Below, in pieces: positions 1,889 to 60,902 of a stretch of DNA of 64,000 nucleotides (position 1 is the stretch's first letter; every line of letters begins with the position of its first letter). Below the pieces are notes generated by a model. That model saw only the letters and a list, made by a program, of their open reading frames with translations, was not told the DNA's origin and did not search any database. The translations under genes and the position numbers were made by a program. Where the stretch lies: contig JBANDB010000014.1 in NCBI GenBank assembly GCA_037576215.1, forward strand, positions 2,294,001 through 2,358,000, written 5' to 3'. This DNA comes from Armillaria gallica (Eukaryota; Basidiomycota; Agaricomycetes; Agaricales; Physalacriaceae).

Positions 1889-2734
1889 CTAATCAAGTTG
1901 ATCGGCCCAGGCTTCCGCGCCGTGTGCCGCGCTGTAGGGATAATCCTGGTGAAATCTCGCGCGCGAGTCCTGGATGTTGACACTGAAGTTATCGTCCTGG
2001 TATTGAACTCCGTAGGAATTCTCCACTTCCGAGTGGGAATGAGCCTCGATCTGAGGGACGGCCAATTGAACAACGGGTTGTGGGGTGGGTGTGAAGATAA
2101 CTGTGTCGCCGTAAGGGTAGGATGGGTTGACGTTAGGAGAGGGAGAGGGCATGTATGCGGGAGTGAATGGGATGTCCGTCGCGTCGCTGGAAAACATGGT
2201 GGTACTGTAATTGGAGGACGGCGTAGTGTTCGGGGAGAATGGGCTATTGGCGTAGTTAGAATAGCTGCTCGACGTGGCACTGGGAGGAGGACCATCATTG
2301 TCTGCATTGAAATAGTCCAAGACAGTCCACGGCTCCGGAAGTTGATACGGATTATAGGTAGCGGCGTGCTCGCAAAATCGGGCTCCACAGGTACAAAATT
2401 ACATCAGGCGCGTCTACCGCGCAAGTTACCATGAGTTCGGGATATTGCGTAAGTGGAGAGCAGCATACCTTCTGGGCATATGCCGCGCATTGGTTCGCGG
2501 GATAACGATTGACGACGGTCGAGACATAGTCGGTATGGGCATGAATACCGTGTTCACACAGGCCGCAGATGTCCTGGGAGAGCATAAGCACGAGAATATA
2601 GGTGAAGGTGAATGAGAGCCTACCTGGTCTAGCAGGGGCGACTCGGGAGGGAAGAACTACAGACACTGACAAGGCTGGCTGTTGTCAGTGACATGGATGC
2701 ACCGTCCTCTAGATGGCAAGACGATTGAAGACAT
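1889..2734 (-). pseudogene. Broken copy of the CGHG Cys/His family
   Basis: This is a three-exon family member in the same layout as its paralogues: exon 1 2624-2734, intron 2574-2623 (GT-AG), exon 2 2469-2573, then a third exon from about 2399 to 1889. Exon 1 has an in-frame TAG at 2657-2659 where paralogues have TGG (Trp). The 3' splice acceptor before exon 3 is gone (the usual CAG reads ATG), and a TAA follows. In exon 2 the invariant CGHG reads CEHG. The tail stops early, at AWADQLD, because of an insertion compared with the copy at 60143, whose AWAD motif continues further. Its closest relative is that copy. With three independent lesions I call it a pseudogene. The tail frame alone (143 codons) is still open. 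Confidence 0.85.
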
Positions 2735-2800
2735 AGTGGGTGCGGGACTGAGTGCAACGCCAGCAGGAGAGGAGGCAATAGAGATTCGGTTTGTCTCGGT

Positions 2801-2816
2801 GCATTTTTAAAGGTCC
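2801..2816 (-). promoter_or_regulatory. TATA-like core promoter of the broken family copy
   Basis: On the minus strand the sequence reads GGACCTTTAAAAATGC, about 70 nt upstream of the ATG at 2734. Nearly the same string stands in the same place upstream of the copies at 8491, 55895 and 60143, and in weaker form at 30286 and 49849. The TTTAAAA core would serve as a TATA element. This is inferred from conservation and spacing. Confidence 0.5.
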
Positions 2817-3076
2817 AAGTGGCTGTAGGGAAAGTAAAATTGGGGGCAAGATGATTTGAACAAGTGGTGGGAAGCTTATAGAAAAGGCGGCAGATTATTT
2901 GATACCCGTGTGTTCCAAGACCTTCTTCTACGGTTCCGTGCCTGGCTCCCTTCCGTAATGCCTCTTTGGGGCTTGTCCGATGAGGCAGATTTCCTCTTGA
3001 AAGTGGGATGACACCTCTCCAATGTATTCTGTTGACACGACCCTATACAGACACAAACTTGCTCAAGCGCTCAAGC

Positions 3077-4292: not shown

Positions 4293-4300
4293 GCTCAAGC

Positions 4301-5309
4301 GTTAAACGTTAAACGTTACTGTAACGTTCAAAGGTTGACGTTCATATTCCAATTACCTACCGCCTACCAGCTGCCACACCTGATGGCAGTATGATGGCTA
4401 GCAGGAGGGCTACGAGGTCGCTCGTGCAGGCCCGCACCATGATACCAGTATGCGTACATCAATTGCGGTCGCTTCCAGTCGTTGTTGTCTTTCCACCAGC
4501 TCCGTTCCTTACCCACGCTTCATTCGTTCGTCTCGTCTCTGCCAAAGCTCCACGAATTCTGTTCATTCTTTCAAGTTTCCAGAATTGATTTCACCTCAAA
4601 AGGCTCCGACTCTTTGATCCGCCCTCTCGGTAAGTTTACTCAGCTGTTGCTAGCGATGGACCTCATCTTTCTATCACTGTCAGGATCTTTTCGTGAAATT
4701 GCCCGCCATACGCTCGTCTCCTCTCATCGGCACATGACGTGAGATCTCGAAGAAAGCTGCACACTCTCTCGAGTCTCTCCTCATGGAACCCTGCCTCCCC
4801 GGTCATGATCATGTACAATCTACACAACCTCCCACGCCATCATTATCCGAATATAGTCCCCATCAAGACCTCACATATCGGAACACCGTCTTTCACTGGA
4901 AATTCCTCTACAACGGCTATGGAGGGTATGGGCGACATAAGTTGCAGACTAGGTCGGAGGGAGGATGCTTGATGCTTGATACCGCCGGTATCCGATGCTT
5001 CGTTTTCACGAGCAAGGCATCGTCGCCCATATATGCCCTTCCGATTTTTTCTTCCCTTCAATCGTTACAGAGATTGGGAGGAATTAACTTCCCTTATCCT
5101 CGCTCGTTCGTCTTCCGTCCCAACACTCTCTATTTTTTCTCTTCCAGGATCTCATCTTGCTTCAAGCCATCCACTGACAACTGTAGTTGCTTTCCATGCA
5201 GAATAGGCTGTCAACCCATCAGCATCACACCCAGCTCTACCCTGCCATTTCTCGCGACCTCTCTTCTCTGCTTCGCGTAGGACAGCATCTGTTATCGACG
5301 AATTCTAAT
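4301..5309. other. Intergenic, no supported gene
   Basis: Nothing recognisable. A short stretch at about 4301-4345 has overlapping palindromic repeats of AACGTT type. A 165-codon plus frame at 4783-5280 is open but shows no motif and no counterpart in the inverted copy beyond position 5310, so I do not call it. Confidence 0.4.
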
Positions 5310-5889
5310 AGCCATGTAGGCGGCCAAACTCTCTATTTTACCACTACGTGCTCAACACCGGCAGTATACTTGTCAGCGTTGGTTTCGAAGGAGCCAAGTC
5401 CTCTATCTACGCATTTGCGCTGCCAACCCCGGTTTGGAGACATCACACGAGTTCGCTGGACTTGGAATTGGACATTTACCTGGCGATGGCACAGGCGCAT
5501 GTCTGTCCTGTGGATCATCCTTCTTTATTGGATGAAAACGGTTAACAAGGAACAACTCCGCCCACCTTCCGGTCCTCCAAGAAAAGACCTGAAAAGACTA
5601 ACAGTGCTCCGAGTCTACATGTCCACGCAGACGACAGCCCCAGCCACCCATCATTCGTTGAATGAACCTTGGGATTCATTTGACCCACAGCGACAGATAT
5701 CATCCTCTGGGTCATGGCAGTCCAGCATTTTCGAAGTCCATCGAGGCGATCCGACTCGAAGTCCTTTCGACTAATCACCATCTTACCCTCTGATGTGACA
5801 AAATCTCCTACATGTTCCGGTGAGGTATGTTCGAAACTTCGACGTCTGTCGCTGCGTTTCTCTCGCTGATGACCTGCTCCAAGAAACAC

Positions 5890-8490: not shown

Positions 8491-9308
8491 TCAAGCGCCG
8501 TATGAGCCTGACCAGTCTTCAGAGGGCTCAGAGTACATCGCATTCCCATAATCCTGGGATTCGAAACTCTCATTCGTCGCGCCATCCTCTGATGGACCAG
8601 CATAGGGAGAGTGAACAATATAGTTCAGATGCTGAGCGAAGTAATCATCTGGGCTGTAGCCTAGGGTCTGAGTGGTATTGGGTTCGATAGCGGGTGAGTT
8701 GCTACTGCTGGCAGAAGGAGAGGAAGAGGGTGCAGGAGTGAGAGACATGTTCCTCGCGTCGTCGGACAGAATAGCAGTGTTGTACTCGGAGGACATGGTG
8801 TTCAGGGAGAATAAACTATTGGCGAAGTTGAAATAGCTGCTCGCGGTGGCACTAGGAGAGGATCCATCATCGTCTGCATTGAAATAGCGCAGAACAGACC
8901 ACGGCTCTGGGATACGATACGAATTATAGGTACCCATGTGCTCGCAAAATTGGGCTCCACAGGTACAAAACTGCAACAGATGTGTCTACCGCACAAGTCA
9001 TCGTGAGTTCGAGATACGGCGCGTAGTAGTGGAGAGTAGCATACCTGTTGGGCATACGCGGCGCATTGATTCGCGGGATAATGATTGACGACGATCGAAA
9101 CATAGTCGGCATGGGCGTGAATACCGTGTCCACACAGGCCGCAGACGAGCTGGGAGACTGAGCACAAGAAGATGGATAAAAGGGAATGGGAGCCTACCTG
9201 GTCTAGCAGGGGCGACTCGGGAGGGAAGAACCACTGGCATTGACAGGGCTGACTGTCGTCAGTGATCTGGATGCACTGTCCTCTGGACGGCAAGAAGACT
9301 GAAGACAT
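8491..9308 (-). CDS. CGHG Cys/His family protein, intact, 231 aa predicted
   Basis: Exons are 9198-9308, 9045-9149 and 8491-8970, separated by GT-AG introns of 48 and 74 nt, both in phase 0. The ATG at 9308 is the start shared with paralogues (MSSVFLPSRGQC). Exon 1 gives RGQC and CQC. Exon 2 gives CGLCGHGIHAHADY and CAAYAQQ. Exon 3 gives CTCGAQFCEH, then about 140 residues rich in Ser, Asn, Thr and Pro, ending near NAMYSE. No signal peptide or membrane segment is visible. The spacing of nine Cys and several His in the first 90 residues suggests metal binding, which is inference. Its closest relatives are the copies at 49849 and 55895, including their 3' flanks. It forms part of the left arm of the inverted duplication. 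Function unknown. Confidence 0.75.
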
Positions 9309-14091: not shown

Positions 14092-14610
14092 TGTAAGACC
14101 CGAACTCCAACTAAAAGGTGAATTAGATCGGCTGTATCGCGTTCGTACAGTCACCGTCTAGCCCTTTTGGATAGTTGATGCCCAAGACTCACTTTAGAAG
14201 CTTTCCAGCAAAGTGGGGATGTGGGAGAATATTCGGTATGAATAAACTTTAGCTCAAAGCTAGGGAAATACAGGCTTTGAGTAAACTACTTATATACTAA
14301 AGTCAGGGTCCGTAAAAGGGTCTAAGATGAGGCTATCGTGTTAGAAAGTGAATAAGCCAAGTACACGATAGCCGAGAAATAAGACGTGCTCAAGACGTGC
14401 TAAGTCGTATTGAGTACGTGTCGCATACGCGTTGGTCGAATGTGACGTGTGGAGTACGTGTCGCGTACATGTCGACCGAGTGTGACGTGTTAGCGATGTG
14501 AAGATTTATGAAGGCTCCCCGGGAGTCGCGGATCTAGGAACGTGGTGAGTTATCTTATCTTATCTGTCGAAGATAAGATAAGATAAGGAAAAAATGAATA
14601 AATCGTAACA
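14092..14610 (-). repeat. 3' LTR of the chromovirus
   Basis: 519 bp, bounded by TGTAAGACC at its plus-strand left edge and CGTAACA at the right. It matches 22907-23425 base for base as far as I can read. It is the downstream LTR because the element is transcribed leftward. Confidence 0.95.
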
Positions 14611-14612
14611 TT

Positions 14613-14623
14613 ACCCCCCCCCT
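14613..14623 (-). other. Polypurine tract for plus-strand priming
   Basis: The minus strand reads AGGGGGGGGGT, followed by AA and then the 3' LTR beginning TGTTACG. This purine run just inside the 3' LTR is where LTR elements start plus-strand DNA synthesis. Confidence 0.75.
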
Positions 14624-14639
14624 AGGGCAGGTGTCCCAA

Positions 14640-15050
14640 CTGCCAGTACATCGGCGTTCCGTCTACGTCATCGTCATGCCGTCCCTAGAGATCTCATGCC
14701 CTCGAGCAGAGTTTTCGAAGAAATGTCATATGGGCTGCAGCTTGCTCCAAAGGCCTTGTTCGCCCAGAGGAGGAGAGGATTTTCCATATGATGGTGACGC
14801 GAGTGGTAAACTAGACCCGTATGTCTCGTTGAGCAGGCCTGATTATGCGCATCTGCCAGTGGATCAGCGTTCCGTTTTGATTTCATCATTGTCTGTCTCG
14901 TTAAACCTCTAGCGTTTAACGAGCGGTGTCATACGCGCTGCAGCTTGTCCCGGGGCCTTGTTCGCCTTCCGGGCATGGGGGACTTTTCGTATGACAGCAA
15001 TGAGAGGGATCAAAAGGGGATCCATATGCGCGGTAGGCAGATTTCTTGTG
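14640..15050 (-). repeat. Two tandem imperfect units with conserved stem-loops in the retrotransposon 3' UTR
   Basis: Unit 1 starts at 14640 and unit 2 at 14853; both begin CTGCCAGT. Each holds a 68-nt foldable segment (14725-14792 and 14928-14995). The outer stem pairs GTCATATGG with CCATATGAT in unit 1 and GTCATACG with CGTATGAC in unit 2. An inner stem uses CTCC/GGAG in one and TCCC/GGGA in the other. Both keep GGC-CTTGTTC-GCC at the tip. Unit 2 has one more perfect 10-bp hairpin (14897-14923). The stretch lies between the Pol stop and the polypurine tract and codes for nothing. A role in packaging, export or RNA stability is speculation. Confidence 0.6.
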
Positions 15051-15166
15051 GTGGCGCGTTAGTATTCGTGAAGGTCGTGAGTAGGATGCATCCTTGTCGT
15101 AAAAGTTCGTGAGTGAGGGTCCGTTGCTATCCCCCGTTATAGGGCACGTTTCGACTGCTTGTTTGT

Positions 15167-18100
15167 TTATGGGATTTCTGTTGCTTCGTACGGCGATTTC
15201 GAGCCTGTCGAGGGTTCGTCGTTGCCACCAAACCAATCCCAGTCGCGTGCCTGGTCGTACCAGATTTTTTGACCAGTGAATGGGTCTGTATAAGACTGCC
15301 AATCTCCTGTCTTTTGTCTGGTGCGGTTCACTTTTTCTGCGCGGTATTTGTCGACTAGTTCGTCGGCATCCATGTCGTTTTCCTTCACCCAGCTGTTGGA
15401 TTCGGGTCCATATCCTTTCCATTTCACGAAGTAGTCTGTAGTCCAGCGCCACGGTTCGCCAGCCCTTCCTCGGACCTTCCGGTCTCTATGCTCGAGAACT
15501 TGCTCGATTTCATAGTGCTCCTCCCCGTCGATAAGATCGGGTGGTGGCGGAGGCGGCTGTTCCTGGTTAGGGAATGCGGGTGGTGTATAGGGCGTTAGGA
15601 GTGATTCGTTGAATACTGGATGGATTCGCCAGCCTGTAGGGAGTTTTAATTTGTATGCCGAAGCTCCGATCTTGGCGATGATACGGAAGGGGCCCGTTTT
15701 TTTATCTGCAAGTTTTTTCTTCGGACGTGGGAGTGCCAGATTGCTCGTGTCGAGCCACACTTCGTCTCCCACCGAGTAATCAACTGCAGGTCTTTTCTTT
15801 TTGTCGTATTGGGCTTTCATCTGGTCGGCGGCTTTCTCGAGTGCTTGTTTTGCCTCGGCATGGATTTTCTGCATATCTGAAACGAAAGTGTTTGAGGCCG
15901 GTGTTCTGAAGGGTGCTTGGGGTCGTACGGCACCAGGGAGGACCTCGACGATATAGCCATGGGTAACCTCGAAGGGACTTTTACCCGTTGCGGAGTGGGT
16001 GCGGTTATTGTGGGCGAAAGCCGCGAGAGAGAGCCATTCTACCCAGTCGTTCTGGCGGTGATTGACGAAGATCCGGAGGTATTTTTCAACCTCCTGATTT
16101 ACTCGCTCAGTCTGTCCGTCAGTTTGTGGGTGGTAGGCGGTGGATGCGTTTGCCTTGATTTGAAGCAAGTCATAAAGGTCTTTCATGAACTTGGATACAA
16201 ACACGGTGCCTCGGTCGCTGATAACGACCTGGGGCATTCCATGTTTGGCGTAAACTTGGTCTCGTAGGATTTTGGCCCACCCTTCCGATGACATTTCCGT
16301 AGTGCATGCGACTGGTATGATTTCCTTAGAGAAGCGATCGACGATCATTAGGATCGCGTCGAAGCCTTGACTCTTTGGTAAACCAGTCACCATGTCGACG
16401 GAGATATGAGTCCAGGGTCGGGAGGGTATTGTGTTGGGATGTAGCGGTGCTGCTTTTGCTTGAGTGCTCGATTTCGTTCGTTGGCACGTTTCGCAACCGC
16501 GGACATAATCTTCTATGTCCTTTTTCATCTTGGGCCACCAATATTCTCGTAGGACGAGTTCTTTAGTCTTTTCTATGCCGGGGTGTCCCGCCGTGATGTG
16601 GTCATGAACTTGCGAGACAATCTCGCCTCGTAACGCGTGGTCGGAAGGAACGTAGATGCGGGAATCGTAATAGATTAACCCGTCATCCATTTTCAGTCCT
16701 CGGTCGTGGTTTAGGGAGGTCGCAATGTTCTTGTCCCATCGTCGGTGGTCGAGCGTGGCTTGCTTTATCTTGGAATGGGTTTCCTCGATAGTGGGTATGA
16801 CTAGGGCCCGGAAGTGCTCGGGTTTGAGGACGATAATTTCGTCGTTGTCCTCCTTTCCTTGCTCGTGATCTGCTCTGCGACTAAGTAAGTCGGCTTTCTT
16901 GTTGGCGGTTCCTGATTTGTGGTGTAGCGTAAAGTGGTATTCGGCCAGCTCAGTAACCCATCGCGCTTGTCGCCGATTGAGTTTCTGGGGTTTTCGGAAA
17001 TACTGGAGATTCTGGTGATCCGTCCATATTTCGAAGTCCTGAGCTGCGCCCATTAGATAGTGCCTCCACTCGTCGAGCGCGATCATTATCGCGAGCAGCT
17101 CTTTGTCGTAAATTTCGTAATTTCGTTCTGTCGTGGTGAGGGATTTGGATAAAAATGCGACCGGGCGCCATTTTCCATCCTGCTCCTGCGTCAATACCGC
17201 ACCTATCGCTCCCTCACTTGAGTCCGCCTCCACGCGGAATTTTCCTTCCTCTGTGGGTATTGCCAGTACCACCTCTTCGGCTAATAGGCGTTTTAATTCT
17301 TCAAACGCGTCCTGTTGCGCTTTTCCCCATTTCCATGGATCGTTTCCTGTCAGCTGGGTCATTGGCTTGACGACCTTGCTGTACCCTTTGATGAAACGCC
17401 TGTAGAAATTGGTAAAGCCTAAGAACGACTGGAGCTGTACTTTCTTGGTTGGTACAGGCCATTCTGCGATTCCTGCGATTTTGACTGGGTCCATGCGGAT
17501 GCTTCCTTCACTGATGATGACCCCGAGGTATTCCGTTTCCAAGGTTTCGAACTCGCATTTTTCCGCTTTAAGGAATAGCTTGTTTTTTCGGAGGAGCCTT
17601 AGAACTTCGCGCGTGATGCGGCGATGTTCTTCCTTGGTTTTGGACATGATGAGGATGTCGTCGAGATAGACAGTGACGTCGCCTGATGCAATGAGATTTT
17701 TGAAAATATCATTCATCATCCATTGGAAGGTAGCGGGCGAGTTGGTGAGCCCGAAGAACATAACCGTGGGTTCGAACAACCCGCGGTTAGTTCTAAATGC
17801 GGCCTTCCATTCGTCGCCACTTTTGATGCGCACGTTGTTGTATCCCCATCGAACGTCAAGCTTGGAAAAATACTTAGCCCCCCGCAACTTGTCCATTAGT
17901 TCTGAGATTAAGGGAAGAGGATAACGGTTTTTAATCGTCATCTCGTTGAGTTTCCTATAATCCTGGACTGGTCGTAGCTTGCCGTCCTTCTTTTTAACGA
18001 AGAAGAATGGCGAAGCCATGGGTGACTTAGATGGTCGTATTCGTCCACTCGAGAGGTTTTCGTCTAAAAACTTGTCGAGTTCCGCTTGTTCGTTCCGGTT

Positions 18101-20341
18101 CAAAGGGTATACCTTGCAGTCTAGATTGGCGCTCGCATTTGGAGTAAGTTCGATGGCGTGGTCCCACGTCTTTGGGTTAGGAAGTTCATCGAAGCTGTCT
18201 TTGTTGAACAGATCGTTGAAATCCCGACACCACTCCGGGACCATTTCTTCAAACGTTTTGGCCTCCTTGTCTGCGTTGGCCGCGGCGGCTAAGTCATTGG
18301 CGTGATGTGCTCGAATGAGAATGGCCCGCGTGAAATCGACTGCTAGGATGGTGTCACCCTCTTCCAGTTCCTCGTCCCAGTTGTCGTCGGGATCCGCATC
18401 AGGTAATGTGAACAGGTTTTTACGGCATTCACATCGTGCAAACGTTAATCCTCCAGTCTTCCAATTGATGATGGGATTATGTCGGGCTAACCAATCGTGA
18501 CCAAGGAAGATCTCTTTATCACCGAGATCTGTTACGGCTAGATCTATTCGTTCAGAATGATCCCCGATTTTGAGTTCGATCTCGGCGTATTCGGTGATTG
18601 ATCCTCCCGAGTTCTTGGTGCCGTCGGCATTGTAGACTGGGATTGGAGCGGCTGTTGGTCGGGTCGGGATGTGGTGTTGCTTAACGAATTTTCGATTGAT
18701 GGCGCTGCTGGTGCATCCGCTGTCTATCAGCGCAGTAGTGGCAACTCGGGGAATTGTTCCTGGAGCCCCAAAAATGATGGGGATCACCAAGTCTTTCCCT
18801 TTGTTGCTTAGTGCGCTGATAAGTCGCTTTGGCTCTTGTAGCTCGTGAAGCCACCAGAGCGCATCAATTCGCTTCATCCCCCTCATTGCTTCGACCATTG
18901 AGTCGACGACCTCTTCTGCGCGTGCTTTGTGAATCCAGTTTTTGAGAATTGCCTTTGCTTCTGACTCCGTCCGCGCTTGTACTACGCCGCGTAGAGTCCA
19001 CTCTGCGCCGAATGGTTTGAGCCATTCTCTATAGGTCTGTCCCTTTGTATAGGTTCGGGACAGTTGCGGGGCCTCTTCAACCTTCGCGTCGCCCCATACG
19101 GGCGCGACTACCGTCGGTGAGGTCACCGCATTTTCTAAGTCTAAAGGGGTTAAATTAGTGCTCTTGTTCGTCATGAAACTGGTAATGTCCTCGTGGTCAG
19201 GTACTTCAATAAAAGCTACCTGATGCCCCCTTTGCACTGCCTGGGCGCTAGCAGCTTCCAAGCCTACGGCTTTCTGGTCGGTCGTGGAACGGGAGGCGCT
19301 TTCCTCGAAGGCGTCGTCTCGTGAAGAGACAACGGGTTGGGCTGACACCGCTGGATGACGATTGCCTGCGCTTCTCATCGTCAACGAGTGGTCGCCTTCA
19401 CCTTGTACCTTCGGGCCCGTCTCTGTGATGACCGGGACCCTCGTTTCGTTCGGCGTTCCCCCTTCGTCGGGTCGCCCTACGTCTCGATAGGCGTTGGCAA
19501 CTGATCGGGGGCACTTACCCGACTCCGGGTTGTCCATCTTCGGGACCGAGGGCAATACCCCCGTCGTGTCCGTCGTCGTCTTCAGGACGGAGGGCAAATA
19601 GATCCCTCCGTGTTCTCTAGGTAGTCTCTTGGCGTCGCGATCTTTGTCGTTCGAGGCGTTGTCTAAAAAGCTCAAGTCAACTGTGTTGCACTTAGCTTGT
19701 CCAGTGTTGCGGGAGCTGGTCTCCGTTGGAGTCTTGGCGTCTGGTGCCTCATCCATGGGTCCAGTGTTACGGGAGCTGGTCTCCGTTGCTGTCTTCAGAG
19801 CCCCGTCGTGGGATTTACACTCTGCAGCCCGTGTGCAAGTCTCTTTTACCAGAGGAGGTTTCGCCGAAGCTATTCCCTCGAAACTCCCTGCGCGGCAGGG
19901 ACTCCGTAGAGCTGCGATTTCAGTGAGGGGACGTTTACGCGGGAGCGTAGCTGTCTGCCCTCCTGCCCCATCCGGTCGAACATTCGTCACTGCGGCTTCC
20001 TCCTGGGAAGGCCTCGACTGGTGCTTCGCCGCTATGGGTGGCGATCTGGTGGTCGCCTTGCCGTCCGCTTTCGCCTGTAATAGGTTACTTGCCAAACGCT
20101 GAGCCGATAGCTCATTGACTACCGCACCCGTCATCGTAAATGGTCCCACCATTACGACCGTCGCTTTGTTAGGCGAGGATGGTCCTGAGTCGCCTTTGTG
20201 GTCGTCCTCAGCTTGTCCAGTGTTACGGGAGCTGGTCTCCGTTGGAGTCTTGATGCCTCTATCGTTGGTCGTCTCATCCAGTGGTCCAGTGTTACGGGAG
20301 CTGGCCTCCGTTTTCGCTTCGTTAGGCGAATGGTGATTCAA
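15167..20341 (-). CDS. pol: Pol polyprotein: protease, RT, RNase H, integrase, chromodomain
   Basis: The frame opens just after a TAA at 20345-20347 and codes for about 1724 residues. Numbered from 20341: protease with ALIDSG near 538-542; RT with Asp829 in KLD and YLDD at 892-895; RNase H near 1036-1155 with TDHQN at 1107-1111; integrase zinc site His1248, His1253, Cys1283, Cys1286; catalytic Asp1316, Asp1376 and Glu1412 (D-D35E); a GPF/Y-type module near 1549-1584; chromodomain about 1609-1670 with aromatic residues in YFVKWKGYG. There is no ATG in the first 63 codons. The first Met is residue 64 (20152), in good context. The frame is +1 to Gag and begins about 140 nt after the Gag stop, so it may need reinitiation, splicing or another route. 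Four SSRNTG repeats mark the 430-residue leader before the protease. Confidence 0.93.
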   Translation of the reverse strand: MNHHSPNEAKTEASSRNTGPLDETTNDRGIKTPTETSSRNTGQAEDDHKGDSGPSSPNKATVVMVGPFTMTGAVVNELSAQRLASNLLQAKADGKATTRSPPIAAKHQSRPSQEEAAVTNVRPDGAGGQTATLPRKRPLTEIAALRSPCRAGSFEGIASAKPPLVKETCTRAAECKSHDGALKTATETSSRNTGPMDEAPDAKTPTETSSRNTGQAKCNTVDLSFLDNASNDKDRDAKRLPREHGGIYLPSVLKTTTDTTGVLPSVPKMDNPESGKCPRSVANAYRDVGRPDEGGTPNETRVPVITETGPKVQGEGDHSLTMRSAGNRHPAVSAQPVVSSRDDAFEESASRSTTDQKAVGLEAASAQAVQRGHQVAFIEVPDHEDITSFMTNKSTNLTPLDLENAVTSPTVVAPVWGDAKVEEAPQLSRTYTKGQTYREWLKPFGAEWTLRGVVQARTESEAKAILKNWIHKARAEEVVDSMVEAMRGMKRIDALWWLHELQEPKRLISALSNKGKDLVIPIIFGAPGTIPRVATTALIDSGCTSSAINRKFVKQHHIPTRPTAAPIPVYNADGTKNSGGSITEYAEIELKIGDHSERIDLAVTDLGDKEIFLGHDWLARHNPIINWKTGGLTFARCECRKNLFTLPDADPDDNWDEELEEGDTILAVDFTRAILIRAHHANDLAAAANADKEAKTFEEMVPEWCRDFNDLFNKDSFDELPNPKTWDHAIELTPNASANLDCKVYPLNRNEQAELDKFLDENLSSGRIRPSKSPMASPFFFVKKKDGKLRPVQDYRKLNEMTIKNRYPLPLISELMDKLRGAKYFSKLDVRWGYNNVRIKSGDEWKAAFRTNRGLFEPTVMFFGLTNSPATFQWMMNDIFKNLIASGDVTVYLDDILIMSKTKEEHRRITREVLRLLRKNKLFLKAEKCEFETLETEYLGVIISEGSIRMDPVKIAGIAEWPVPTKKVQLQSFLGFTNFYRRFIKGYSKVVKPMTQLTGNDPWKWGKAQQDAFEELKRLLAEEVVLAIPTEEGKFRVEADSSEGAIGAVLTQEQDGKWRPVAFLSKSLTTTERNYEIYDKELLAIMIALDEWRHYLMGAAQDFEIWTDHQNLQYFRKPQKLNRRQARWVTELAEYHFTLHHKSGTANKKADLLSRRADHEQGKEDNDEIIVLKPEHFRALVIPTIEETHSKIKQATLDHRRWDKNIATSLNHDRGLKMDDGLIYYDSRIYVPSDHALRGEIVSQVHDHITAGHPGIEKTKELVLREYWWPKMKKDIEDYVRGCETCQRTKSSTQAKAAPLHPNTIPSRPWTHISVDMVTGLPKSQGFDAILMIVDRFSKEIIPVACTTEMSSEGWAKILRDQVYAKHGMPQVVISDRGTVFVSKFMKDLYDLLQIKANASTAYHPQTDGQTERVNQEVEKYLRIFVNHRQNDWVEWLSLAAFAHNNRTHSATGKSPFEVTHGYIVEVLPGAVRPQAPFRTPASNTFVSDMQKIHAEAKQALEKAADQMKAQYDKKKRPAVDYSVGDEVWLDTSNLALPRPKKKLADKKTGPFRIIAKIGASAYKLKLPTGWRIHPVFNESLLTPYTPPAFPNQEQPPPPPPDLIDGEEHYEIEQVLEHRDRKVRGRAGEPWRWTTDYFVKWKGYGPESNSWVKENDMDADELVDKYRAEKVNRTRQKTGDWQSYTDPFTGQKIWYDQARDWDWFGGNDEPSTGSKSPYEATEIP

Positions 20342-20487
20342 GTTTAGTTCCTGGTCTGATTGCGAAGTCGCGGGTATATTCGAATGCGCGTTTGACGCTA
20401 TAGGCGATATATAAGTACAATCTTGAGACGTGATAGGCGTACCAGCCGAAACTAAACCTCGGGCCGCCGAATAGACTGAATCATCAT

Positions 20488-22864: not shown

Positions 22865-22891
22865 AAAGGTTCTGATGCAGAATCAGTAGAG

Positions 22892-22905
22892 TAGCTTTGA
22901 GCTAA
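22892..22905 (-). other. Primer-binding site complementary to the transcript's own 5' end
   Basis: On the minus strand the site reads TTAGCTCAAAGCTA, one base inside the 5' LTR. Its exact complement, TAGCTTTGAGCTAA, occurs on the same strand in the LTR at 23064-23077, where transcription should start. This is the arrangement of self-primed elements such as Tf1. I see no similarity to a tRNA 3' end. Confidence 0.75.
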
Positions 22906-23103
22906 TTGTAAGACCCGAACTCCAACTAAAAGGTGAATTAGATCGGCTGTATCGCGTTCGTACAGTCACCGTCTAGCCCTTTTGGATAGTTGATGCCCAA
23001 GACTCACTTTAGAAGCTTTCCAGCAAAGTGGGGATGTGGGAGAATATTCGGTATGAATAAACTTTAGCTCAAAGCTAGGGAAATACAGGCTTTGAGTAAA
23101 CTA

Positions 23104-23111
23104 CTTATATA
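23104..23111 (-). promoter_or_regulatory. TATA box of the LTR promoter
   Basis: TATATAAG on the minus strand. The self-primer sequence TAGCTTT begins 34 nt downstream of its first T, a normal TATA-to-start distance, so the primer would sit at the very 5' end of the RNA. Confidence 0.7.
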
Positions 23112-23401: not shown

Positions 23402-23430
23402 GGAAAAAATGAATAAATCGTAACATTGAG

Positions 23431-40330: not shown

Positions 40331-41116
40331 ATGTCTCCAACGATCTCACCTCCCAGAGCACGATGCACCGATGTTATTGACGGGACTGTAACCTGTCATT
40401 GTCCGTGTTTTAATGCTCCTTCGTTGCCATCCCTAGATCAGGTAGGCCCTGTTTCTATACGACAGATACACTCATGTAACGCCTTGGTTCTCTCAGTTCA
40501 ACTGCGTCTGCGGACATGGCATTCATGCCCACGTCGACTACGAATCGAAGGTCGTCTTTCATAACCCCACCACTCACTGTGCGGCTTATGCCCAAAAGGT
40601 GCCCATTACCGGTCTGCATTAGTCTGCTTGATACTCACGTTATTCGCGTTGAAGGCTCATAAATCCCATGCGTGTACTTGCACCGTACAGCTTATTGACC
40701 ATGAGCCCATCGTGAACGCGTATCGTTCAATCGCTCTGTTCCATAGTCAGGCTCTCATCGCGAGCAGTCTCAACACCATCACCCCTTCTAATGCCGACAT
40801 GACCGGACCTTCCAGCGACACTGGCACCTTTGTTGTTACTTCGACACCCATTCCCTCCTTCAATGTTAACCCTTCCATCGACACCAATTCCATGCTCTTT
40901 GCTCCTGTACCTGCTCCCTCTCATTCCAACAGTGTCTTCCGTTTCTCCCAGAGCGAAGCATACGCTTCTGTTTATCACCAGCAATCAGACGACGCGTCCT
41001 TGGTCCATGACTTGGCTGGCAGCCCCGCCGTCCATCACGCGCCGGAGGGTTATAATGACTACCAAGGTCATTCATTTGGGATGGATGGTGCACCATCTAC
41101 TGGCCCGTATGCCTAA
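40331..41116 (+). CDS. CGHG Cys/His family protein, intact, 224 aa predicted
   Basis: Exons 40331-40441, 40497-40598 and 40655-41116; introns of 55 and 56 nt in phase 0, the second ending with a plain AAG acceptor. Exon 1 MSPTISPPRARC then CHCPC. Exon 2 FNCVCGHGIHAHVDY, HCAAYAQK; here the first pair is CxC, one residue shorter than the CxxC subgroup. Exon 3 ACTCTVQLIDHEPIVNAYR, followed by a Ser/Thr/Pro/Asn tail. The usual NAMY end is not obvious; the tail finishes FGMDGAPSTGPYA. It shares upstream sequence with the 46445 gene (duplicated block) but its coding part is well diverged. Function unknown. Confidence 0.72.
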
Positions 41117-43390: not shown

Positions 43391-43640
43391 CTCGCCGCCA
43401 TCGTCGAATAAGCGTACAGCTTTGGCGGTACTTTCGGAATCGCCATTCAGTACATCAAGACGAAATCAAATATCTATCGCCTTCTCTCCAGCCAGTGCTG
43501 CACTCACCGTCAATCCTCACTTACCCAGAACATCTGCACTTTGTGCGTACACGGTATTCACTCACACGCCGACTGTGTTTCAGTCGCTGTCCACCAACAT
43601 CCCAAGAAGCATCGTCTACGTTAAGTACGTCGCCAATCCG
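43391..43640 (+). pseudogene. Relic of a CGHG family gene: leader plus exon 2
   Basis: The leader (TATCGCCTTCTCTCCAGCCAGTG) matches that of the 30286 gene, then exon 1 is missing and exon 2 follows after an ACCCAG acceptor: NICTLCVHGIHSHADCVSVAVHQHP, with the glycines of CGHG replaced and the frame lost afterwards. No exon 3. It is the expected partner of 30286-31109 in the duplicated block. Confidence 0.65.
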
Positions 43641-46444: not shown

Positions 46445-47137
46445 ATGTATTCGACAAACTCAGCATCTTCAATCAGAGGACAGTGCGTTGAGCACACTGA
46501 TCACGCTTTCTGCGTCTGTCCACGCTTCCTCCCTGCTCGTGACGAGACTCGGCAGTATCCCAACTCGGACAATGTCGTCCCTGCATATCACTGCACGTGT
46601 GGACATGGCATTCATGCGCACGTTGACTACCTGTCTCCGGTCGTCCACCATTGCCCTTCAACTCACTGTGCAGCCTATGTTCAAAGGGTGCTACCATTGT
46701 CTTCTTCCCAGTTTCGTAGCGATGCTGATATGCTAGTTTATCCTTAGACACCCCGAACACAGGATTGCACTTGCGGAGCTCCCCTTGCAGACCATGTCGC
46801 TATCGTGAATTCATACCGATTGCCGGCAGCTATTTCCTATGCAGGCAATATCCAGAACATCTGCCCTCCTTCCAGTATGGGCCCGGACAGCGCATCCGAC
46901 AACATGAATATCATACTATCCCCTCAGTCCATCGTTTCCTCTCCTTCTCCCAACATCTATCCATCGGGGACCCTACAGGGTACCATCCAGGAAGAAGTTG
47001 ATGTCTCTAGTTGTCGTCAGGGCCCGAGCGGCGTATTCAAAGGTGACAGCGACGAGAACGGGCATTTATATGACCCCTTGAACGCGATGTATGGCGCGAC
47101 CTCGGTGTCAGACGCTTTGACAGGCTTCTCCGCCTAG
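46445..47137 (+). CDS. CGHG Cys/His family protein without intron 1, 205 aa predicted
   Basis: The first 81 codons (46445-46687) read through what are exons 1 and 2 elsewhere: RGQCVEHTD, FCVC, then CTCGHGIHAHVDYLSPVVHHCP and CAAYVQR. Where paralogues have a 50-nt intron, this gene has about a dozen in-frame codons and no splice sites. One GT-AG intron remains (46688-46762), then exon 3 46763-47137 with CTCGAPLADHVAIVNSYR and a Ser/Pro/Asn tail ending PLNAMYGAT. The gene at 54751-55459 has the same structure with exactly the same number of codons before the intron, so the two form one subgroup. All signature residues are present. An ATG at 46424 is in another frame and ends quickly, so I prefer 46445. 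Confidence 0.75.
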
Positions 47138-48482: not shown

Positions 48483-48625
48483 AAAACCAAGCCTAGTTAT
48501 GCTTGGTTTTACTGGACAATAATCCGGGGTCTCGCGAGGTCTCGCGCGGCCTCGCAAGATCCCGCAAGATCTTGCGAGGGATTGCGAGATCTCGCGAGTT
48601 ATGCAGAGATCTCGCGAGATTTCAA
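48483..48625. repeat. Hairpin and array of TCTCGCGAGA-like palindromes
   Basis: A perfect 10-bp hairpin (AAAACCAAGC, 8-nt loop, GCTTGGTTTT; 48483-48510) is followed from about 48528 by at least seven overlapping palindromic units related to TCTCGCGAGA and CTTGCGAG, spaced about 10-15 bp. Non-coding. It could be a site array, a small foldback element, or a simple repeat degenerating from one unit. Confidence 0.6.
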
Positions 48626-49758
48626 GAGGGCAGGTGCTCTCATATCTTATATGTCATTGAGAAGGACACCTGGCAGTGTGACCGGAGGGTGACGCCTACT
48701 TTAGGCACTCGTTCCGAGCCCTCATCTGTTTTTTCTAATCAAATAGGAACATCCATTTTCGCCTCAATCGCCACGCCGCCACGGTCCGACCAACCGACCA
48801 ACGATCAAGTGGCTGTGCCTTTTCTTTCGTAGTCTTTTACCACCATCGACCACCATCCCATTTCCCATCACGACAGACGGTCATGTTCCTTGCGTCTACA
48901 TGGACCACGAACGATGTGATATGGATGTTCTGGCATTCATAGGCTCGAGTACTGCATCCATGCATGCTGTTTCTGGCCGAAACTGCAGGCTTGGTTTCTC
49001 GCAGTCGCCCGGTGTCTGCTTTCGGTAGCTGTCATAGGCTCGAACATCGCTACGAGTACATTGTTTATTATCTAAATGGTGCGCTCGGCTGCTTGTCGTT
49101 GTTCGATGGTGGCGACATGCCCCAGGAAGATGACAATAGCGACGACGACGATGCAGAAGCAGTGGATGAAGAGGTGGAAGCCATCATGCAGATTTCGGGG
49201 GACCCTGAGAAGGAATGAATATATATCAGTAGAATAAACTGAGAATCAGATTTTTGCCCAATTTTCCGGATTTTCGAGCTTTATTTGAGGGCAGTAGAGC
49301 ATTCGCGACGTCGAAAGAGTTGGAACGATGTGCGCGGCGGCGGGATCAATGGCCGGGACATCGGAACAGCGGTTGCTAGGCGGCACTGCCGCGATGACGA
49401 AACCCGAGGCGGAACGGCACCCAGAGCACCCAAGTTTGCCTTGAAGGCGGCTTGCTATTCAGGTGCTATTGAAGTGTAGGGGGTAAAGAGAGAAATCACT
49501 ACAATAATAGCGTGCCCGTGACCACGGGAAACCCTATTATATTAGTCGCCATGTGGGTCTATCAGGTGTTTTCGATCTTTTCGGTCTTCTACAAGACCAA
49601 AAAGACACGAAAGATCAATGCTGGGTTTTCCTGATGTGTATGTTTACATTTCAGACTCTCCAGGTGTCACCCATCAGCAACCAAAGACGCCACATTTGCC
49701 ATCAAATTGATTCACACCCAAAAAAGATCGACGCGTGTGCCGGTACCAATATCTGGTC
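48626..49758. other. Intergenic with one weak ORF
   Basis: A plus frame at 48964-49218 (84 codons) ends in a strongly acidic run (Asp/Glu in 48-residue tail) and might be the last exon of a lost gene. No family match. Confidence 0.3.
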
Positions 49759-49848: not shown

Positions 49849-50644
49849 ATGTCTTCAATTGTCTTGCCATCTAGAGGACAGTGCATCCAGGTCACTGACA
49901 ACAGCCAGCGCTGTCAGTGTCTAGGGTTCTTCCCTCCCGTGTCGCCCCTGTTAGACCAGGTAGGCTCTCATTCACCTTCACCCATCTTCCCGTGCTCGCG
50001 TTCTCCCAGGACATCTGCGGTTTGTGTGGACACGGTATTCACGCCCATGCCGACTATGTTTCGACCGTCGTCAATAGTTATCCCCCGAATCAATGTGCGG
50101 CATATGCCCAGAAAGTATGCTGCTCTTCCCTCCACGCAATATCCCGAACTCACGATGACCGCGTCTGACACAGTTAATTTGTACCTGTGGAGCCAAACTT
50201 TGCGAGCACATCGCTATCCATAACCCGTATCGACTTCCGGACTGTTTCAACCCGGACAGTCTCAATGGCCCTTCTCCCAGTGCCACCACCAGCAGTCATT
50301 TCAACGACGCCAATAGTCCATTCTCCCCCGGGCCGGGTACCACATCCCCCGATTACGATATCACCATTTTGTCCGGCGACACGAGGAGCGTATTTCTCAC
50401 TCCCGCACCCATTTACTCTCCTTCTGCCAGCAGTTCCTCATCCGCTATTCAACCCGATACCACTCAGACCCTAAGCCACTACTCAGACGGTTATCTCGCT
50501 CAGTATCCGAACCATTTCGTCAACTCGCATTATGCTGGTCCGCCAGAGGGTGGCGCGACGAATGAGAGTTTCGAATACCAGAATTATGGGAATGCGATGT
50601 ACGCTGAGCACCCTGAATACTGGTCTAGCTCATACGGCGCTTGA
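49849..50644 (+). CDS. CGHG Cys/His family protein, intact, 228 aa predicted
   Basis: The clearest family model. Exons 49849-49959, 50010-50114 and 50174-50644; introns of 50 nt (GTAGGC...CTCCCAG) and 59 nt (GTATGC...ACACAG), both phase 0. Residues: Cys12, Cys22, Cys24 from exon 1; Cys40, Cys43, His45, His48, His50, Cys66 from exon 2 (CGLCGHG, HAHADY, CAAYAQK); Cys75, Cys77, Cys82, His84 from exon 3. That is nine Cys and four His in 73 residues, then about 140 residues rich in Ser, Thr, Pro and Asn ending NAMYAE...SSSYGA. No signal peptide or membrane helix. The pattern suggests a zinc-stabilised head on a flexible tail, which is inference. Closest relatives: 8491-9308 and the broken 55895 copy, which also share its 3' flank. 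Confidence 0.78.
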
Positions 50645-54750: not shown

Positions 54751-55459
54751 TCATGGACTGTCGACGCCATTGGCATCCGTGCCTGCCCAAGCGTCTGTTG
54801 TCGCGCTGTACATCGCATCGGAATGATCATGGATGTACCCATTCGCCGTGTCGTCGTCGACTGTGTTGTTCAGATACGGGTAAGGACCACTGGAGACATC
54901 AGCCCGGGTGATTTGAACCAGCTGAGTCCCCGATGGATAGAGATTGTGAGAAGGAGAGGGAACAGGATGCGGAGGGGATAGCACGAGATTCATGTTGTTG
55001 GACGGGCTGATCGCGTCGACATTGGAAGGGGTGCCAATGTTCTGGACGCTCACGAAGGATCCCGAAACGTAGGGAATAGCCGCAGGTACTCGGTGTGGAT
55101 TCACGATAGCGACATGGTCTGCAAGGGGGGCTCCGCACATGCAATCCTGTGTCTGAAGCATCTAAAATGACCTATATCAGCGATAGTTCGGATACGGGAG
55201 ATAATGAGGGTAGCACCTTTTGGGCATAGGCTGCACAACGAGTCGCAGGGCAATGGTGGACGACCGAAGATACGTAGTCGACATGCGCGTGGGCGCCATG
55301 CCCACACGTGCAGAGGTGCGCCTGGGAGGTTATGAGAGTAGGGAAGACACCATCGGGGTATCGACGAGCGGGGACGAAGCGTGAACACAGGCAGAATGCG
55401 AAATCGGTGTATTCAACGCACTGCCCTCTGACTGAAGGTACCGAGATTGCTAAAGACAT
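54751..55459 (-). CDS. CGHG Cys/His family protein without intron 1, 212 aa predicted
   Basis: Exon A 55217-55459 (81 codons), intron 55147-55216 (70 nt, GTGCTA...ACACAG), exon B 54751-55146. Signature: RGQCVEYTD, FCLC, CTCGHGAHAHVDYVSSVVHHCP, CAAYAQK, CMCGAPLADHVAIVNPHR, and a Ser/Pro/Asn tail with DAMYSAT near the end. Between CLC and CTCGHG it carries codons ending ...ITSQ that still look like an intron tail (CATAACCTCCCAG), which suggests that the ancestral intron 1 became coding. Same subgroup as 46445-47137. It is divergent from the broken copy at 55895, with 435 bp between the two starts. Confidence 0.76.
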
Positions 55460-55894: not shown

Positions 55895-56694
55895 ATGTCT
55901 TCAATCGTCCTGCCGTCTAGAGGACAGTGCATCCAGGTCACTGACAACAGCCAGCGTTGTCAGTGTCTGTGGTTCTTCCCTCACAGCTTGCCCCTGCTAG
56001 ACCAGGTAGGCTGTCATCCACCTTTTCCCATGTTTCGGTGCTCACGTTCTCCCAGAACATCTGCGGTTTGTGTGGACACGGCATTCACGCCCATGCCGAC
56101 TTGTTTCGACGGTCGTCAACCATTGTCCCGCGAATCAATGCGCCGCGTATGCCCAAAAGGTATGCTGCTCTCCGCTACGTGCCGTATCTCGAAGTCACAG
56201 CTACGTTCACTGCAGACAACTCTGACGCAACGTTGCACCTGTGAAGCCCAATTCTGCGAGCACGTTGCTACCGATAACTTGTATCGGCTTTTGGACCCGT
56301 GGGCTGTTTTGGACTATTTCAATCCAGACATCAATGGCCCTTCTTCCAGCGCCCCCACGAGCAGCTATTCCAACGACGCCAATAGTCCATTCTCCCCGAA
56401 CACCACGTCCTCCGATTACCACACCGCCGTTTTGTCGGGCGACGCGAGGAACATTTATCTCACTGCCACATCCACTTCCTCTCCTTCTGCTGCCAGTACC
56501 TCATCTGCTATTCAACCCAATACCACTCAGACGGTTACTTCGCTCAGTATCCGAATTATTTCGTTAGCTCGCCTTATGTCGGTCCCTCAGAAGGTGACGC
56601 GACGAATGAGAGTTTCGAATACCAGGATTATGGGAATGCGATGTACGCTGAGCCCCCTGAAGCTGAAGGCTGGTCGGGCTCATACGGCACTTGA
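55895..56694 (+). pseudogene. Frameshifted CGHG family copy
   Basis: Splice sites and all three exons are in place: 55895-56005, 56056-56159, 56216-56694. Exon 2 has 104 nt instead of 105: one base is missing in GACTATGTT (here GACTTGTT at about 56098), which shifts the frame in the middle of the DYVS motif. Exon 3 then has a 19-bp deletion near 56530 between two ACTCAG repeats, compared with 49849-50644. The start, CQC, CGLCGHG and CTCEAQFCEH are otherwise perfect and the promoter block is the best conserved of all. A fused frame (286 codons) reads through the introns, but by accident. Recent pseudogene; right arm of the inverted duplication. Confidence 0.75.
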
Positions 56695-58060
56695 TCCATG
56701 GCAAAGACATCGTGATCCATTTCTTGTCGCTCAATCCTCTTTCACGTCGTCCTGACCATTTGTTCTTTCCTTCATTGTCACCATCCCTGCTATTTTCTAC
56801 GCCACGCTTCTCGACATTCGATCCCAAATTTATTACTTGCGATTGATTATATGAACTCTACTTTCTATTCATCCTTTCCGTTCTTCTCTCCAAGCATCAC
56901 TGCAGTGCAGGATCTCCTCTAACGCTCTCAGTTCGCCTTTTTTGATACTGTTTTCGGTCCGGCTATGATTCGTTTCCTCTTCTTTGTGGAATTTGCTACC
57001 ACTTCCGTCGCGATATATATGCGTTGGTAGTATATATCGACTACCTTCATCGCTTTAGCTTGTTTCTGTCCGTCTGTCCCGATCGTTTTGTAATCGCTTT
57101 GGAATTAAATTATCATCATTGACTGGTGGTTTAATAAGGATATACAGATCACATGCATTCTCTTCCAACATTCCGCATCATCAGAATCCCTACAGTATCA
57201 AGGCCGGCAAGGTCGGAACGTACTCTCCCTCTTACATCATGACTATCGCCCAACACGAACCAGCCCCTCGCTACCCTGCCATTTCCGTTGTATGCCAGAA
57301 GCCCACGGCTGCGGGCCTAGCCCGAAGGAGCAGCAACAACGTGGATTGAAAGAGAAGAACCATCCGCGGAATCGAATCTACTGTGATCCCAAAGCGGTAT
57401 TCACCGCTTGCGCATTTTCAAATTCACGACGAACAAAAAGAACCACTCACTCACTCAACTTCTCTTATTCCATCGTTTTTCTTTCGCATGATTCGATTTC
57501 TAGTCTGATGTTAACACCGCTTTCTTTGATCAGGCTTACTCCAGGCTTACTGAGGAGGGGAAGATGGTCGCAGTGAAGAGACGATCGTCCGCCTCACACC
57601 CAAGTCCTCATCTGCTTTCGCATTCCAGAAATGGAGAAGACACAAGCCGCCCTCCGAACCCTTCCGGACACGCTTCGAGACCGACGGGTCAGTCAACCAA
57701 GACATCATCCCCATCGAGGTGAGCACGCGCACCTCCACTGACCAGGATTATCAGTGGTTAGCAGCATCGACCCGCCGCATGCCAGAGAACCGGCACACGG
57801 ACGCCTCTACGGAAGTCTTTATGAGGACAGGCTGTCTTGTCCCCCTAGGATCGACCGCTGCATTGCCCGGCAATTATGGGAGTAGTCGTGGGATTTGCGT
57901 TCCTCGGATTATTATGGCGAAGCTGTGACTCAATGTTCAGAGTTTTGATTTTCTGTGAGTTCACTAGAGATCTGAGACAGGTCAGATCGGGACATGCAGA
58001 AGGCGGCGCGACGTATTCAAGTCCAGGCTATAAGGATAAGGTAGAGTAACAGGCGAACGT

Positions 58061-58261
58061 TCAACGATACACATTACTAACGAGGGTAAGGTCGGCCAGA
58101 AGCGCCGTACATGTACATTCCTGCGCTTGAGGCGTCAAGATTGCATCGGCAACTCCGTATACGGGGGCGGAGGATAGTGCTGTCGACAAGGGACATACAC
58201 GAAAGGGTCGCCATCCACACGATCCATTGTTTTTGGGAGTAGCGCTGAAGTAGCTGATCAA
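58061..58261 (-). pseudogene. Relic of a CGHG family gene, exon 3 start
   Basis: QECTCTALLADLTLVSNVYR on the minus strand is nearly the exon 3 start of the 26734 copy (QECTCMALLVDH...VNLY), including the preceding GACGCC of the intron end. The stop follows at once and there is no tail. Exon 2 upstream is eroded beyond the first Cys. Inverted partner of 5890-6050. Confidence 0.6.
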
Positions 58262-58535
58262 GGAGAGAAACGCGGCAACAGACGCCGAACATACCTTGCC
58301 AGCATTTGCAGGAGATGTTGTCGCATCGGATGGTCAAGGTGGTGACTAGAGGGAAGGACTTCGAGTTGGATCGCCTCGATGACCTTCGAAAGTGTTGGAC
58401 TGCCGCGACCTCGATGATCGTGGACGTGTGGACTCGGAGTGCTAGCTCCTTCGACGCTGGCAAATATACTGTTGGTTGGAGTACCTGTGAGCAGTTCGTC
58501 GTAAAACAGAGAGTCGGGCCGCATACGCGGATATC

Positions 58536-60142
58536 AGAACGGCGACCAAGCGAGACTAATAAGGATGGGATGGCGACATTGATGGGGTGGATTAAGCCAA
58601 CCACGGTGACTCGAGATGTCGTGCAGGCAGGCCGTACATGGCCCAGATGAGGGCAGAGATGATCCTTCCTTATGTATGGCGCAACATTTGTCTCCCTTCC
58701 TTTGGAGCCCGTCGCAATCGTCATCTACCAAGTCAGTCTTTCATTCACCCTTATTGATGCTGCTTCGTAGTAATATTTATCCCAGTGAACTGCAACGTGT
58801 AAAGGCATCTCGTATTGACATTGATGTTCGAGGAAGTCGAAAGACAGAGAGCCTCGGATGGTCGTCGTGGTTAACGAAAGGCAGCGACTCAGAGGAGCCA
58901 GAGCACGGGATCAATTTCAAACTCAGCTTTTCCCATAACCGTGGCGACCTTTCAGCGGGAAACAGGCACTAAACCTGGACTACAGCATCTTCTCCCCCAC
59001 GCTAACTGCTCTCTAAGTCTGGGATGCTCAATCCGGGGAATTTCGTTCATCGACCTATAGTGTATGCAAGAGACGGTGCCAGCAAGGCCCCGACTGCTAT
59101 TGGTGCAGCCCAGTCGCATCCGTCTTCAATCAACCACCGCCATCACCAACCGTAGCGTCTACATCTAGGACGCCTAGCTCTCGGTGTCAGTGACAAACAC
59201 ACGAGCATGGGGGTTTGGCAGATGGATATAGAATGGAAGGAACTTGAGGAGGATGCTGGTACGTATGACTATCTAGTCCATGGCTGATTTTCTGGGCTCG
59301 ATGATATTTCCGGCCTTGCTCATAGACGGGAATTTTAACAGCTCGGAAAGCCATCGACATGACCCATCTGAGCTACTTCGCTGTTTTCTAGTCGCCCTTC
59401 CCAAACGTCTTAATCGGCATTCCCTCATGGTTCTGCTGCTCCCGATATCTCTCTTTGGCCAGCTTTCCTCTGCATTCATCACACACCCCACTACACGTTA
59501 TACAGGACAACGGTAGCACTAGAGGTCTCTGACCCTTTTACCCCGGTCAATCATCGTTTCAACATTCATGTATCCGCATCTACGACCTGGTTTCCCGAAT
59601 TCGCGTATATCCTGATCCGCGAGCGCGTATCATGATCGAAGCAAGCTACGGATATCAGCGCGGATGCATCAGTTAGCTTAAATGGCCATTGGAGAAGGCG
59701 GGTCGAGTGGACGACAACGAGAGTGAAGCCGGATACCGGCGAGGCCACGGCTACTGGCTCAAAATCGTCGACCCACTCGTCTGACCGATATGGTATTGCA
59801 CATTCGCCGACAATGCAACGCCAGGTAGGGAACACTTCGATTCTGTTATCCTTGCTCAAGACTTTGATCAGGTTTTGAATCAGGCGTTCGAGGAGATAGC
59901 GACCGCTCAAACTACTTGAAGGGGTTTGGCTACATGTAGAAAGGATTTTTTAGGACGTAAAAGGTGCTAAACACGTTCCTTCGGGTCCAGTTTAGTTACA
60001 TAAATAATAAAACACGTATGATTTCAGAGCAAAGCTCAGCGATAAAATGAAAACAGGTACACAAAGCAAGAGAAAGCGAGACGATATACAAGATGTACAT
60101 ATATTGGTACGTTGTTGTGAGACGTTGTTACGACGCGTTAGT
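58536..60142. other. Intergenic, 3' flank of the 60143 gene
   Basis: 59070-59190 and 59950-60142 are the partners of 650-830 and 1660-1888. Frames at 58616-58972 and 59566-59910 have no motif. Nothing else supported. Confidence 0.4.
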
Positions 60143-60902
60143 TTATCCACCAAACGACGAAGGAGCTGGAGATGAATGAGGATCCGCCCACGCTTCCACG
60201 CCATGCACCGAATTGTAGGTGGTCAAATGATCCTCGCGAAAATTCGCGCTCGAGTCCTGGACGTTATTAATAACGCTGGAGTTATCGTTCTGGTGCTGAG
60301 CGATGTAAAAATTCCCTACTTCCGAGTGAGAATGAGCGTCGACCTGACTCAAGATGGCCGTTTGGATAACGGGTTGCGGGGCGGGTGCTAAGATTTCGCC
60401 ATAAGAGTGGGATGGGTTGTCGTTAGAGGATGGAGCGGGCATGGGTACCGGAGTGAACGGGATGTTTGTTGTGCCGCCGGTGAATGGGATGGCATTGGAA
60501 GGAAGGGCACCCGCCCCGGTGTAGGGCAGAGGTGGAGGCGAACGATACGCATTTATGACCGGCATATGCTCGATGAGAGACGCCGAGCATGTACAAGCTT
60601 GTATCCGGGACGTCTACAATGATATACAGGTTTATTGTTTCAGACACCACGGCCAGAGAGTATCTACCTTCGGATAGTACGCAGCGCACTGATGGACGGA
60701 CATTGAAATGTAATCGACGTGCGCGTGAATACCGTGTCCACACCAACAGATGTGCTAGGAGAACGTAAGCACGGATGCCAGGCGAAGATGAAAGTGGACC
60801 TGCCTGATCGAGGGTCGACGCGAACGATAGGCACTGACAGAGCTGGTTGTTGTCAGTGACCTGTGTGCACTGTCCTCGGGGCGGCAAGAAGACTGAAGAC
60901 AT
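60143..60902 (-). CDS. CGHG Cys/His family protein with a GC-AG intron, 218 aa predicted
   Basis: Exons 60804-60902, 60668-60754 and 60143-60613; introns 49 and 54 nt in phase 0. Intron 1 starts GCAGGT where every paralogue with this intron has GT (CAG|GTAGGC), so it should be a GC-AG intron; the rest of the donor is a strong match. Exon 1 MSSVFLPPRGQC, CQC. Exon 2 HICWCGHGIHAHVDY, then a 5-codon in-frame deletion before CAAYYPK. Exon 3 ACTCSASLIEHMPVINAYR, then a Pro/Ser/Asn tail containing HSHSEVGNF and VEAWAD, motifs shared only with the broken copy at 1889-2734. No stop or frameshift. If GC is not used as donor, the first exon cannot join in frame, and the copy would be dead. Confidence 0.68.

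Follow-up and report, generated by a model that had tools for sequence, protein, structure and literature searches.

Among described proteins, FAM221A and FAM221B (PF14753) come closest in their Cys and His residues to the gene family analyzed here: the two share, in a common order and at roughly common spacing, a C-x-C-x2-aromatic group, a Cys-Cys-His group with further His, a Cys, and a C-x-C-x6-H group. Beyond these ligands there is no likeness, and the family has a different tail and many copies. For the tail, we take the activation segment of yeast Gcn4 to be an acidic-aromatic comparator; the likeness, seen by eye alone, lies in an acidic stretch with a short aromatic-hydrophobic helix, EPWxVLDYF, although not every family gene has this helix. 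Clear homologues, alike over the whole length or over the head, exist among Armillaria and Desarmillaria proteins such as ARMOST_07939 and EDD18DRAFT_1421008, but their records say only hypothetical or uncharacterized, and no description of them or of the family appears in the titles and opening abstract lines of the open-access papers listed by literature searches.

Armillaria species are tree pathogens and are among the largest and longest-lived organisms. Here we analyze a 64-kb stretch of the Armillaria gallica genome (the window; C14:2294001-2358000 of an 86-Mb assembly in 28 contigs), and we follow the family found there through the rest of the genome and into related species.

Results

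The amplified gene family reported in an initial annotation of the window is real. When the coding sequences of the family were searched against the DNA of the window, 14 loci came up on the two strands, spread from 1889 to 61535; seven have intact frames and seven are broken or remnant. This bears out the earlier count (seven intact copies, seven or more broken), with the caveats that the intact copy at 60143 needs a GC donor and that short remnants make up two of the broken loci. The loci are as follows.

1889-2734, minus strand: broken copy, stop in exon 1
8491-9308, minus strand: intact gene, 236 aa; exons 9308-9198, 9149-9045, 8985-8491
24110-24512, plus strand: fragment, only exon 3 and part of the tail
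26734-27443, plus strand: broken copy, stop in exon 1
30286-31109, plus strand: intact gene, 237 aa; exons 30286-30396, 30452-30556, 30612-31109
40331-41116, plus strand: intact gene with a tail of different type, 224 aa; exons 40331-40441, 40497-40598, 40655-41116
43495-43625, plus strand: fragment, only part of exon 2, motif altered
46445-47137, plus strand: intact gene without intron 1, 210 aa; exons 46445-46687, 46748-47137
49849-50644, plus strand: intact gene, the example used in the initial annotation, 228 aa; exons 49849-49959, 50010-50114, 50174-50644
54751-55459, minus strand: intact gene without intron 1, 217 aa; exons 55459-55217, 55161-54751
55895-56694, plus strand: broken copy, frame shift in exon 2
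58037-58136, minus strand: exon 3-like remnant, single weak match (E 4e-5)
60143-60902, minus strand: gene with a frame open only with a GC-AG intron 1, 218 aa; exons 60902-60804, 60754-60668, 60613-60143
61471-61535, minus strand: short remnant from the DNA search

The 54751 gene and the broken copy at 55895 form a divergent pair. The 60143 model was set by hand, one automatic procedure having taken another splice path and a second having given no model at this locus, and its exon 2 has six codons fewer than exon 2 of the 49849 gene. At up to three mismatches, the head-motif DNA pattern matched the window 16 times (mean of 100 shuffles, 5.06; largest, 12); 11 of these matches lie on the coding strand of family loci, and the other five are opposite-strand echoes or chance.

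Several other features lie in or near the window. A Ty3/gypsy-type LTR element on the minus strand (14092-23427), with reverse transcriptase, integrase and chromodomain matches, has 521-base repeats that are 100% identical and, by eye, is bounded on either side by a 5-base duplication (TTGAG); it entered the cluster recently. A repeat at 57386-58012, adjoining the broken copy at 55895, has up to six overlapping matches elsewhere in the fetched sequence, and a short tandem repeat with the unit TCTCGCGAGA occupies 48530-48628. The open frames at 4783-5774, 27533-28198 and 35425-36015 (165-221 aa) had no Pfam match at E 0.01, and a Pfam scan of twenty open frames outside the family, in the window and neighboring C14, gave one match, MSS51_C in L026.

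Five of the seven intact genes have three exons and two have two exons, with introns of 48-60 bases. The earlier statement that the copies share splice sites holds for intron 2, which is present in all seven; intron 1 occurs in only five (four GT-AG, one GC-AG), and the 46445 and 54751 genes lack it. Of the 37 models labelled intact by the automatic procedure, a set that contains two wrong splice paths and two pairs of identical palindromic copies, 17 have a TATA-like box within the stretch from -140 to -60, compared with 2.3 in shuffles; in six of those 17 models the box is at -77. Further evidence on splicing comes from P0075, a continuous 252-residue open frame across both intron sites that is known from one source only, labelled 'lgn', in contigs of at most 1,408 bases. 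When P0075 is compared with C14, its two best pieces join at residue 71, the intron 2 position of the nearest gene. The source would be assembled public sequencing reads, and P0075 is best read as a spliced transcript from a relative; a processed copy is a possible alternative.

The protein has two parts. The head, of about 80-105 residues, carries 12 conserved Cys/His positions, which in the 49849 protein are C12, C22, C24, C40, C43, H45, H48, H50, C66, C75, C77 and H84. In an alignment of 105 homologues (from 136 proteins found, fragments removed), each of these positions is kept in at least 90% of sequences and six are kept in all. Seven Cys and three His are present in 34/34 gene models from the genome, and one further Cys and one further His in 32/34, a count biased towards conservation because the models were chosen by head pattern; the pattern had removed three of the 37 models, one of them genuinely without a head Cys, and among the 34 left are the two pairs of identical palindromic copies. 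The nine Cys and four His originally noted within about 73 residues of the 49849 protein are indeed there (residues 12-84), and the ninth Cys, residue 82, occurs in only half of the 34 models. Twelve ligands suffice for three metal sites, and from this we infer that the head most likely folds around about three zinc ions. Its charge is near neutral (median -1, 34 models), which argues against direct DNA binding. An AlphaFold2 model (whole-model mean 53) was most confident in residues 51-100, where the best blocks scored 72-79; the head model, of low to moderate confidence, gave no clear PDB match.

The tail, of about 140 residues (median 139), has a median pI of about 4.2 across the 34 models and is rich in Ser (15.5%), Pro (10.4%), Thr and Asn, with little Lys (0.4%) or Cys (0.3%). 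In the main subfamily it starts with the short aromatic-acidic helix EPWxVLDYF, which several genes lack, among them 40331, 46445 and 54751. AlphaFold2 places a helix at residues 100-107, and 9 of 13 blocks beyond residue 110 score under 50; the tail is predicted to be mostly disordered. None of the 34 models has a strongly hydrophobic N-terminus (best 9-residue Kyte-Doolittle value: median 0.78, highest 1.68) and, by hydropathy alone, no signal peptide is apparent in them.

The proposal that the head is constrained while the tail diverges faster is supported, with dN/dS of about 0.3 in the head, not near 1, and about 0.6 in the tail. Pairwise medians were 0.27 for the head and 0.57 for the tail (pooled, 0.35 and 0.67) over 78 pairs, those close enough among 561, which share genes and hence are not independent; the head value was about 0.3 among close paralogues too. 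A codon model of 15 of the 34 genes, with kappa fixed at 1, gave omega values of 0.29 and 0.57 for head and tail, respectively, both of which may be biased by recombination. The tail is under weaker constraint; since its omega is below 1, positive selection on it is not demonstrated, and simple relaxed constraint fits this value as well.

Heads and tails have different histories. The nearest non-identical head to that of L030_2642923 is in L031_2824184 (dS 0.21), whereas its tail is much closer to that of L031_2823325 (tail dS 0.14 vs 0.68). In trees of 17 models that we chose from the 34, five genes that share a tail type group together on tail data with support of 100/100, a clade that head data reject (AU test: p 0.0008 for all five and p 0.017 for a subset of three). 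Conversely, tail data reject the pairing of L030_2642923 with L031_2824184 (p 0.0002), for which head support is weak (42/17). These AU p-values are optimistic because the groups were named after data inspection.

Homologue searches returned 65 proteins at first, 146 with a profile and 13 with the C14:2388029 gene as query. Among the matches listed (120 of the profile search's 146), all named rows are Armillaria or Desarmillaria, some rows being nameless, and judged by these named matches the family appears so far to be present only in those genera. The named homologues are called hypothetical or uncharacterized in the records shown, with no function described, and the family would therefore merit a new domain entry. 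The identities of the matches in themselves point to an Armillaria as the source of the window. Eight A. ostoyae members among the matches listed have locus numbers in the range ARMOST_07913 to 07960, which suggests a cluster in that species as well. Seven named species (A. luteobubalina, A. fumosa, A. nabsnona, A. mellea, A. solidipes, D. ectypa and D. tabescens) carry relatives of the C14:2388029 gene at 69-96% identity, the match in A. solidipes spanning 60% of the length, and the gene seems to be a conserved member present in nearly single copy. It and C12:2495795, which are 91% identical to each other, have a C-terminus that differs from the rest and perhaps represent an ancestral-like member.

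Genome-wide, the motif pattern occurs at 136 places with at most one mismatch, compared with 10 for a reversed control pattern. By manual count, 79 matches are exact: 38 on C12, 36 on C14 and five elsewhere, one of which, on C9, may be chance. Other genome-wide tallies were 40 listed DNA matches and 171 exon-level matches. An automatic scan of C14:2234001-2468000 (234 kb) gave 48 exon-match clusters, labelled as 26 intact, 9 broken and 13 partial; on manual review, the 'intact' copy at 2256822 is actually broken, the 'broken' one at 2362234 is an open frame without the last His, and the partial clusters at 2283775 and 2284347 look like a single gene. Neighboring copies on C14 are in tandem in 31 of 47 pairs, and inverted duplication is therefore not the main arrangement there.

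A divergent subfamily with HGIHAHVDAQS heads in long open frames (L033, L034 and L035, on C18, C2 and C4) is 91-94% identical between contigs, flanks included, and apparently spread as a dispersed repeat. A retrocopy origin of these copies, through a supposed loss of intron 2, was dropped because the six-frame reading agrees with a short intron that contains no stop.

Several head-to-head inverted pairs are present: one at C12:2641-2644 kb has 100% identity and arms of at least 1,291 bases, and others are found on C4 (98.7%), at C12:2546-2549 kb (97.6%), on C11 (89%), at C12:2823-2825 kb (85%) and at C14:2393-2395 kb (74%). The divergent pair at 55 kb of the window gave no inverted palindromic match. 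The most similar palindromes could be assembly fold-backs, an explanation that does not easily extend to the older ones.

The ends of C12 and C14 match each other. C14:2130001-2131500 corresponds to C12:2907980-2909479, inverted, at 100%, and C14:2540001-2541500 corresponds to C12:2367815-2369302, inverted, at 97%, whereas both control stretches (C14:1000001 and C1:4000001) are single-copy. Between these flanks, the two contigs are 95% identical over 8.3 kb at one place and 84-91% at another, and the order of motif matches suggests partial inverted collinearity, with some copies lacking an evident counterpart. The two ends are probably unmerged haplotypes of one chromosome-internal, strongly differing region; segmental duplication is possible. 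If they are two haplotypes, the haploid copy number is about half of the census count. A subtelomeric placing of the C14 cluster was abandoned: the cluster overlaps the C12 end and is thus more likely chromosome-internal.

Discussion

Our results lead us to propose, tentatively, that the family encodes two-part, probably intracellular regulatory adaptors with a zinc head and a variable acidic tail, the repertoire of which turns over at a haplotype-variable region. The head, as a putative zinc module, would bind a conserved partner, and further proteins would be recruited by the varying tail, which may act as an activation-type segment. Growth and decay of the repertoire would proceed through duplication, inverted duplication and head-tail recombination, in a region that is apparently very different between two haplotypes.

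A rather doubtful alternative is a recognition or conflict repertoire, that is, variable intracellular proteins selected for diversity and directed at self and non-self or against mobile elements or viruses. The copy number, the birth and death of copies and the conflict between head and tail histories are what such a repertoire would be expected to show, as is a cluster that is 84-95% alike between two contigs with flanks at 97-100%. However, a repeat-rich, weakly recombining region could give the same picture, and a tail omega below 1 means that positive selection is not demonstrated. Nor does the cluster lie at a mating-type locus: none of the STE3 (19) or Homeobox_KN (7) matches is on C12 or C14, the pheromone receptor matches falling on C5, C2 and C1 and the homeobox matches on C10, C6 and C2, so we rejected mating-type linkage.

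It seems unlikely that the copies are largely dispensable duplicates in a repeat-rich region in which an old constraint is now relaxed. Half of the window loci are broken, and the automatic scan of 234 kb labels 22 of its 48 loci as partial or broken, as relaxation would predict. Yet head dN/dS stays at about 0.3 even among close paralogues, TATA-like boxes are retained and one member is kept across seven other named species.

We consider it similarly improbable that the family is a divergent branch of FAM221, with the same zinc module by true common descent. Searches of Pfam, NCBIfam, PHROGs and the PDB gave no match above threshold, and the early remark that no named family is known to have this pattern agrees with the Pfam profile search, in which no match passes the cut-off. 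FAM221 is the Pfam family with the most members matched (6 of 105, tied with the recombinase zinc ribbon); its best E among the 105 is 0.018, the match covers the expected stretch, the order of the Cys/His groups agrees, and a FAM221A segment scored against the head profile surpasses 2957 of 3000 full shuffles, 43 reaching the real score, a modest agreement in spacing. Against common descent, 99 of the 105 members have no match even at E 1, the two bit scores available (12.8 and 13.4) do not reach the Pfam cut-off of 25 bits, and single-sequence hhalign gives a probability of 1.5%. When shuffling leaves Cys and His where they are, 1486 of 3000 shuffles do equally well or better, and nothing beyond ligand spacing is therefore common to FAM221 and the head. 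A genome scan with the FAM221 profile misses every locus of the family and yields a single sub-threshold place, on C5, where no such head is visible by eye. With scores below the cut-off and a likeness in Cys/His spacing only, we do not accept FAM221 membership. The description of the family as apparently undescribed stands with respect to Pfam and the listed open-access titles and abstract openings, and is to be qualified by this weak likeness.

Finally, a role as small effectors against host plants would suit a fast-evolving, lineage-specific family in a genus of tree pathogens, but it is very improbable given that no strongly hydrophobic N-terminus was found in 34 models.

A bolder reading goes further than the adaptor model that we favor and is correspondingly speculative, with little chance of being correct: a new intracellular zinc module would be the constant part of a repertoire with tails swapped by recombination and palindromes, at a locus kept extremely different between the two haplotypes of long-lived individuals, and the whole would serve recognition or genome defence in armillarioid fungi alone. 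A lineage-specific family of many copies, probably zinc-binding, with head-tail recombination and a variable cluster is in any case a concrete place to look for self-recognition, regulation and genome defence in these fungi.
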